Shown piece after piece: positions 47,342 through 48,605 of a stretch of DNA of 48,605 nt. The position numbers were made by a program, and so were the translations under genes. Below the pieces are notes generated by a model. The model did no database searches. It was not told the DNA's origin and saw only the letters and a list, made by a program, of their open reading frames with translations. The DNA is from Bacteroidales bacterium. GTDB lineage: Bacteria > Bacteroidota > Bacteroidia > Bacteroidales > VadinHA17. The stretch's first letter is position 1. Each line of letters opens with the position of its first letter. The stretch is taken from positions 1 through 48,605 of the forward strand of contig JANYIW010000083.1 in assembly GCA_025358645.1 (NCBI GenBank). The letters run 5' to 3'.

Positions 47342-48061
47342 ATGAAACATATTCCAAATTTCATTACATCGCTTAACCTGCTATCGGGATTTATTGCAAT
47401 TATTTTTGCAGCCCAGGGGAATATAGTAACAGCTTCCTGGCTGATACTTGCAGCGATGATCTTCGATTTCCTCGATGGTCTTTCCGCCCGTTTACTGAAA
47501 GCATATTCTCCCGTGGGAAAAGAACTGGACAGTCTTGCCGATGTTGTAAGTTTTGGAGTCGCACCCGGATTAATAATATACTATCTTCTTAGTGAGGCCA
47601 TATCATCGAATGCTCCTATTAATATAAATACAAATGTTTTAATAGCTGTACTATTAATGATGATCGCAGCAATAATGCCGATATGTGGAGCGATACGACT
47701 GGCAATATTCAATTTGGATTCAACACAGTCTAAAGCCTTTAAGGGGTTACCGATCCCTGCAAATGCTCTTGCAGTAATTTCCATTGTTATTGCCAGCCAT
47801 TATACACAATCCCCGTTAATCAACTCATTTACAGGATCTCCATTTTTGCTAATACTCTCTACCATTATATTATGCTTATTAATGGTCAGCCGAATACCCT
47901 TGTTTTCTCTCAAAATTTCAAATATGAAGCTAAAAGGAAATGAAGGAAGGTATATTCTTTTTGGTCTGGTTTTAATTGACTTAGTGATTTTTGGACCGGC
48001 AGGAATTACTTTAATAATACCCCTTTATATTATTTCTTCAGCAATATCACTGGCCTTCTGA
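47342..48061 (+). CDS. pssA: CDP-diacylglycerol-serine O-phosphatidyltransferase
   Basis: The 239-residue membrane enzyme makes phosphatidylserine, precursor of phosphatidylethanolamine. The CDP-alcohol phosphotransferase motif is complete: DFLDGLSARLLKAYSPVGKE followed by LDSLAD. About seven membrane segments are visible. I chose ATG 47342 (MKHIPNFITSLNLLSGFIAI), the family's typical start, over the ORF-track TTG at 47261. The 3' end overlaps a convergent 40-codon gene by 15 nt. Confidence 0.93.
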   Translation: MKHIPNFITSLNLLSGFIAIIFAAQGNIVTASWLILAAMIFDFLDGLSARLLKAYSPVGKELDSLADVVSFGVAPGLIIYYLLSEAISSNAPININTNVLIAVLLMMIAAIMPICGAIRLAIFNLDSTQSKAFKGLPIPANALAVISIVIASHYTQSPLINSFTGSPFLLILSTIILCLLMVSRIPLFSLKISNMKLKGNEGRYILFGLVLIDLVIFGPAGITLIIPLYIISSAISLAF

Positions 48062-48169
48062 TCCGGAAAAATTCTTTTCGTAAACGGATAATGCATATTT
48101 TATAGCAACCCAGACTAATAAAATAAAGGCTGGCCATAATAGGTATTGAAGAATTTGACTTATATACAT
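48047..48169 (-). CDS. 40-residue single-span membrane protein downstream of cydB (CydX-like)
   Basis: This frame is too short for the ORF track. It begins MYISQILQYLLWPAFILLVW, one membrane helix, and ends IKYALSVYEKNFSGSEGQ with a charged tail. Size and topology match CydX, the small subunit that stabilises cytochrome bd in E. coli (37 residues), and it lies in the same position, 67 nt after the cydB stop. Sequence similarity to CydX itself is not obvious, so a functional analogue is inferred. It overlaps the end of pssA by 15 nt in the opposite direction. Confidence 0.6.
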   Translation of the reverse strand: MYISQILQYLLWPAFILLVWVAIKYALSVYEKNFSGSEGQ

Positions 48170-48236
48170 GATTTAGTGTATTATTGTCTGATTGTCTGAA
48201 TGTCAAATGCAATGTAATGTGTGGTTACCGGATACT

Positions 48237-48605
48237 CTAATATTTATGTTCGTCTGATTTCATCTCCTCTTCTGTGATCCTGTTATTATTTATTGCTTTC
48301 CATGCATACCAGATGTACACCACAACAATAGGGATAATAAAAGAAACATACATCATGGTTTTTAATGTAAAAAGACTCGAAGATGCATTTCTGATAGTCA
48401 AAGAGCTTTGCAGGTCAAAAAGTGACGGGTAAAATGAGGTTCCATTAAAACCGGCAACAAGAAACAAGGAGAAAACTGCAAGTATTGTACCAGCGCCGGA
48501 AAACCAGATTCCTGAAACACTTTTCCTGAAAACAGTTATTCCAATACCATAAAGAACACTCACAACTCCGGCGAGGAAAAGAATCAGAACAACAGGCATC
48601 TGAAT
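48237..48605 (-). CDS. cydB: Cytochrome bd ubiquinol oxidase subunit II, C-terminal part
   Basis: The frame is open to the window edge (123 residues visible, entering as IQMPVVLILFLAGV). It shows two to three membrane helices and FYPSLFDLQSSLTIRNASSS followed by TLKTMMYVSFIIP, the C-terminal hallmark of CydB in Bacteroidota. The oxidase reduces oxygen to water with quinol at high affinity. cydA should lie beyond the edge. A 40-codon CydX-like gene follows. Confidence 0.88.
   Translation of the reverse strand: MQMPVVLILFLAGVVSVLYGIGITVFRKSVSGIWFSGAGTILAVFSLFLVAGFNGTSFYPSLFDLQSSLTIRNASSSLFTLKTMMYVSFIIPIVVVYIWYAWKAINNNRITEEEMKSDEHKY

Follow-up and report, generated by a model that had tools for sequence, protein, structure and literature searches.

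A conserved one-helix membrane protein encoded directly after cydB in Bacteroidales, a probable small subunit of long-Q-loop cytochrome bd

With cytochrome bd, which is a drug target, anaerobic and nanaerobic bacteria can exploit trace oxygen or dispose of it. Several small proteins are known in connection with these quinol oxidases. CydX of Escherichia coli lies against transmembrane helices TM1, TM5 and TM6 of CydA and clamps the heme-bearing bundles, its loss impairing assembly, while a second one-helix subunit (CydH) occupies another site of the enzyme (PMC6853902). CydX also forms the dimer interface, via a Met1-Trp2 contact (PMC13189123). Reports of CydX are confined to alpha-, beta- and gammaproteobacteria, where its CydA partner almost invariably has a long Q-loop (PMC4325964), and a 2026 structural paper attributes it to only some of the long-Q-loop enzymes (PMC13189123). 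The same survey that defined this distribution described CydY in epsilon/delta operons with long Q-loops lacking CydX, and CydZ in short-Q-loop operons; it also noted that all long-Q-loop operons without CydX encode a small hydrophobic protein ahead of cydAB (Allen et al., PMC4325964). In Campylobacter, CydY/CioY is a 34-aa one-helix protein whose gene follows cydB and in which a Trp, a Pro and a Tyr are conserved; it co-precipitates with CioA and has been modelled at the CydX site (PMC11955535). Porphyromonas gingivalis has no downstream cydX, cydY or cydZ, yet its CydAB works (PMC4668044).

The window, i.e., the whole 48,605-nt stretch of DNA that we analyzed, is the complete contig C299 of a draft Bacteroidales genome. 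The end of the contig that concerns us here carries the following features.

47342..48061, plus strand: pssA (CDP-diacylglycerol-serine O-phosphatidyltransferase), convergent with the small ORF; TIGR00473, E=2.8e-36, above cut-off
48047..48169, minus strand: small ORF of 40 codons, its product a one-helix membrane protein; supported by the ORF itself, conservation, synteny, dN/dS and AlphaFold2
48170..48236, minus strand: gap of 67 nt separating cydB from the small ORF
48237..48605, minus strand: C-terminal part of cydB (cytochrome bd subunit II), 122 codons; PF02322, E=4.3e-12

The small ORF starts with ATG and encodes a 40-aa protein (MYISQILQYLLWPAFILLVWVAIKYALSVYEKNFSGSEGQ). A preliminary description had reported a 40-codon ORF after cydB, partly opposite the end of pssA, and its coordinates and length are confirmed, the last 15 nt of pssA overlapping the end of the ORF. 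The gap to cydB has no terminator-like site. At 48183-48204, it contains 2.8 copies of a directly repeated 8-mer, ATTGTCTG; CAATCAGACA-like repeats also precede the small gene at locus L008. cydB is truncated by the contig end, and its N-terminal part is found on contig C360 of the same genome, where the gene order is DUF4492-cydA-cydB and cydA encodes 518 aa. From the two cydB halves, we infer that C299 and C360 join inside cydB and that the full operon, divided by the assembly, is cydW(DUF4492)-cydA-cydB-ORF. On the minus strand of C360 (L173), DUF4492-cydA-cydB is accompanied by a gene that, by eye from its translation, resembles an A-type flavodiiron protein (oxygen or NO reductase), and, assigned in the same way, by AI-2E-like transporter and hsp20-like genes. 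A similar flavodiiron-like gene, again assigned by eye, adjoins cydB at two other loci (L245 and L254).

The partner oxidase belongs to the long-Q-loop type, since its CydA aligns end to end with that of E. coli bd-II (E=7e-126) and bd-I (E=7e-125). The E. coli CydA reference was taken from the PDB comparison and not from an E. coli plasmid record (L281, CP061260.1), in which the cydA and cydB frames look broken (frameshifts) upstream of an intact cydX. DUF4492 (PF14899) precedes cydA at 54 of the 60 loci that have the small gene and enough upstream sequence, and it presumably corresponds to the upstream small hydrophobic protein of Allen et al. Judging from position and size, it would also be the CydW encoded by the upstream gene of P. 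gingivalis (PMC4668044). Like the small ORF, DUF4492/CydW is a small membrane protein of the same operon, present on C360, but it is a different family, encoded upstream of cydA and 82 aa long.

When the small ORF was compared by tblastn with 60 relatives, it was found in 25 genomes of the same genus, with weaker matches in other families of the order. Wherever relatives had enough sequence, it was located directly 3' of cydB, with the ATG at the identical codon. For 30 sequences at the genus level, dS was usable in 163 pairs, and the median dN/dS of these was 0.165 in the ORF frame but 1.4-1.6 when either of the other forward frames was read. In keeping with a coding sequence, differences within the genus are most frequent at third codon positions (0.48 vs. 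0.27 and 0.20). Conservation of the ORF is not owed to pssA since the overlap is missing in most relatives and one of them (L027) has pssA in another arrangement. This shows that the ORF is a protein-coding gene under purifying selection. The preliminary description had named an unconserved frame in relatives as the result that would speak against it; the tblastn and profile searches and the dN/dS analysis revealed the opposite, a frame that is conserved, linked to cydB and selected.

An alignment of 133 family sequences (A2) defines a family of proteins of 32-56 aa with one helix. The best conserved positions are W12 (92%), P13 (98%) and I16 (92%), followed by a Ser/Thr at position 19, an aromatic residue at position 20 (Tyr in 70%, Trp/Phe in 23%) and Glu/Asp at position 31 (74%). 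About 83% of the members have an aromatic residue (or His) within three residues after Met1. The C-terminal flank has ~3 K/R residues and a mean net charge of +2.0, while the N-terminal side is slightly acidic (-0.4), and by the positive-inside rule only, an N-out/C-in topology is therefore predicted. AlphaFold2 modeled the small protein as a single helix spanning residues 3-34, with a mean pLDDT of 87.6. None of the 133 members has a convincing match in Pfam or NCBIfam, and the A2 profile matches no PDB chain up to E=10 when all chains are searched. Curated models of this small-protein family are thus lacking in both Pfam and NCBIfam, and annotation pipelines will probably overlook the gene.

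To define the distribution of the family, a profile of 27 sequences (A1) was searched in 247 genomes sampled from Bacteroidales, which revealed the small gene in 101 of them (E<=0.05). Linkage to cydB is strong: cydB is upstream on the same strand at 87 of the 89 order-level loci examined, and at 83 of these 89, the ORF starts within 200 nt of the cydB stop. The reverse approach, starting from 80 CydB loci in a collection of named genomes (two of which end too soon to score), identified the small ORF at 66 of 78 scorable loci. Carrier isolates include Marinilabilia salmonicolor, Geofilum rubicundum, Alkaliflexus imshenetskii, Carboxylicivirga and Mangrovibacterium lignilyticum; Draconibacterium is a further cultivable carrier. 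Beyond the order, sampling of 345 genomes across the class and 396 across the phylum yielded hardly any matches, which makes the gene a near-exclusive property of Bacteroidales. The "Bacteroidota" scope proposed earlier was hence too wide. A tblastn search of plasmids with the family consensus found nothing. Two contigs labeled Chlorobi (L132) and Polaribacter (L159) have a CydB that falls inside Bacteroidales in the tree, and are probably mislabeled or contaminated bins.

On the CydB tree, presence of the small gene is clustered, requiring 9 changes compared with 22.8 in shuffles. A Paludibacter-like clade is devoid of the small gene, which appears to have been lost several times, including within the genus of the window. 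Since several genomes of this genus keep cydB when the gene is absent, and no convincing copy was found elsewhere in same-genus genomes lacking it, the oxidase dispenses with the small protein in some genomes. Intact cydB and convergent pssA with no small gene between them are seen at loci L102, L106, L107, L110 and L115 and in genomes G001, G003, G010, G012, G013, G014 and G025. In several close relatives lacking the gene, short imperfect GGCAGGCGGCAGG-like and AGAGCGGAGAGC-like repeats are present where it would be. A good family match (MYWREILWLISWPLMIWILHLIITSAINKYEDK...) near position 1000 on the minus strand of another contig (L206, G500:C112), adjoining a dihydropteroate synthase-like gene and with no cydB within 1 kb, might be an orphan copy.

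The small gene is thus selected, tied to cydB and matching in predicted topology. We consider it very likely that its product belongs to the long-Q-loop cytochrome bd as a structural subunit, most likely at the CydX site. The small-subunit reading of the preliminary description is strengthened by selection, cydB linkage and the conserved frame; that the protein is part of the complex, the precise place it occupies there and its requirement for activity are inferred. According to this reading, the cydW(DUF4492)-cydA-cydB operon would express the small protein as a single helix with a periplasmic N terminus and a cytoplasmic, K/R-rich C terminus. The helix would most likely sit in the place of E. 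coli CydX, at CydA TM5/TM6 (and TM1), and clamp the four-helix bundles holding hemes b558 and b595, which would allow the heme site to assemble and stay stable. The protein may also aid dimerization, the aromatic residues close to Met1 recalling the Met1-Trp2 dimer contact of E. coli, which is only an analogy. It is probably a functional equivalent of CydX. A bolder version, in which the protein is an independently evolved subunit unrelated to CydX/CydY that was convergently recruited to the groove of CydA TM1/5/6, its repeated loss marking clamp-free oxidases, seems to us rather doubtful.

It is improbable that the protein is a transient assembly or heme-insertion factor acting on CydA/CydB rather than a permanent subunit. 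Such a factor could share the operon and the linkage to cydB, and if it were useful without being essential, its loss from lineages retaining cydAB would be understandable. However, the characterized one-helix proteins encoded at the same position, CydX and CioY, co-purify or co-precipitate with the oxidase (PMC6853902, PMC11955535), and the covariation with TM6 presented below, if real, suggests stable packing.

The site of the helix was explored by covariation, using 138 paired sets of CydA, CydB and small protein and two scoring methods. Among all helix pairs, the highest scores went to CydA L234 with F15 and I227 with I23, which both involve TM6 and are consistent with antiparallel packing at matched depth. 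When packing was tested with a register and an orientation set in advance from hydropathy, TM6 alone stood out among the CydA helices (nominal p 0.006 with a tolerance of 4-5 residues, 0.019 with 3). By combined score, antiparallel, depth-matched packing on TM6 comes first of 36 helix-by-orientation tests including CydB, with a nominal p of 0.004-0.005 that is not significant after correction for all 36 tests. CydB helices 1 and 9 score almost as high as TM6, and one of the two methods places them above it (nominal p 0.005-0.016); an unrestricted search of packing bands gives p of about 0.1. Covariation is therefore suggestive of antiparallel packing on CydA TM6, at the CydX site. The closeness of CydB helices 1 and 9 is in favor of another location, on CydB or at a CydH-like site blocking the oxygen channel, from which the protein would tune oxygen access or quinol specificity, and the second one-helix subunit of E. 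coli does sit elsewhere than CydX. We regard this as less probable still, because TM6 is first in the combined score and provides the two strongest pairs, and because CydX and CydY, like the small protein, are encoded next to cydB, while E. coli CydH is encoded at another locus (PMC6853902).

That the ORF arose by chance, or owes its conservation to a 3' UTR structure, a regulatory RNA or the pssA overlap, might be suggested by its short length and its absence from protein family libraries, but is ruled out for practical purposes by a low dN/dS in its own frame only, a protein signature that is kept while DNA and spacing diverge, and an overlap of just 15 nt that most relatives lack; the RNA version is rejected as there is no Rfam match.

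A subunit at the CydX site of long-Q-loop cytochrome bd thus remains our preferred reading, which has practical implications. In P. gingivalis, the downstream small subunit was reported missing (PMC4668044). A conserved Bacteroidales counterpart would be an overlooked component, to be included when bd enzymes are expressed, purified or modeled, and because the gene has been lost naturally within a single genus, closely matched genomes with and without it can be paired to ask what the small subunit does. Cytochrome bd small subunits are an already known kind of protein; the spread of this family in Bacteroidales appears undescribed in the literature that we searched.

Comparison with CydX (YbgT/YccB, PF08173, TIGR02106) shows shared architecture and divergent sequence. 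As the preliminary description had put it, position and size are CydX-like: the gene is directly 3' of cydB on the same strand, and the family members are of 32-56 aa with one helix, compared with about 30-50 aa for CydX. Both partner with a long-Q-loop CydA, and an N-out/C-in topology would be common to them, on the Bacteroidales side by the positive-inside rule only. Both have a Trp at the start of the helix and an acidic residue 19 positions further on (W6-E25 in CydX, W12-E31 in Bacteroidales). In contrast, the Bacteroidales family has neither the MWYFxW start nor a counterpart of G9, and Pro follows Trp. Dissimilarity to proteobacterial CydX, also noted at the outset, is borne out by the models, none of the 133 members matching PF08173 or TIGR02106. 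A canonical CydX encoded elsewhere in these genomes was considered and rejected, since none of 198 genomes of the order has one over the PF08173 cut-off. When aligned by hhalign with 13 CydX sequences, the family reached a probability of 52% (P=1.4e-4), a score matched by shuffled columns in 1/400 and 5/400 cases and with rotations scoring alike. Because these controls reach the score, the case for homology with CydX is weakened despite the W...E spacing.

CydS, CydH, CydZ and CydP resemble the Bacteroidales protein in being small, or built of one helix, and in their link to bd oxidases, and each differs from it. CydZ (DUF2474, PF10617) belongs to short-Q-loop enzymes, whereas the partner here has a long Q-loop, and the family has no Pfam match. 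CydS is likewise a component of short-Q-loop enzymes, CydH is encoded by an unlinked gene in E. coli (PMC6853902), and neither is matched among PDB chains. CydP is an annotated small gene beside Legionella cydA, for which there is no Pfam, NCBIfam or PDB match.

The likeness is closest to CydY/CioY of Campylobacterota and some Deltaproteobacteria, which also consists of one helix and is encoded directly 3' of cydB in a long-Q-loop operon without CydX. Its conserved W, P and Y have counterparts in Bacteroidales (92%, 98% and 70%), as compared by description and not by residue register. The Bacteroidales family differs in belonging to another phylum and in its K/R-rich C-terminal flank, often with an acidic tail. 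The proposal of a "distinct" small subunit is sound with respect to CydX models, to which the family is unlike, but "distinct" is perhaps too strong given that W/P/Y, position and operon type match CydY/CioY. Judged by described features, CydY/CioY is the most similar known kind. Homology of the Bacteroidales family to CydY is likely on these grounds, and the family may be CydY in a new phylum.
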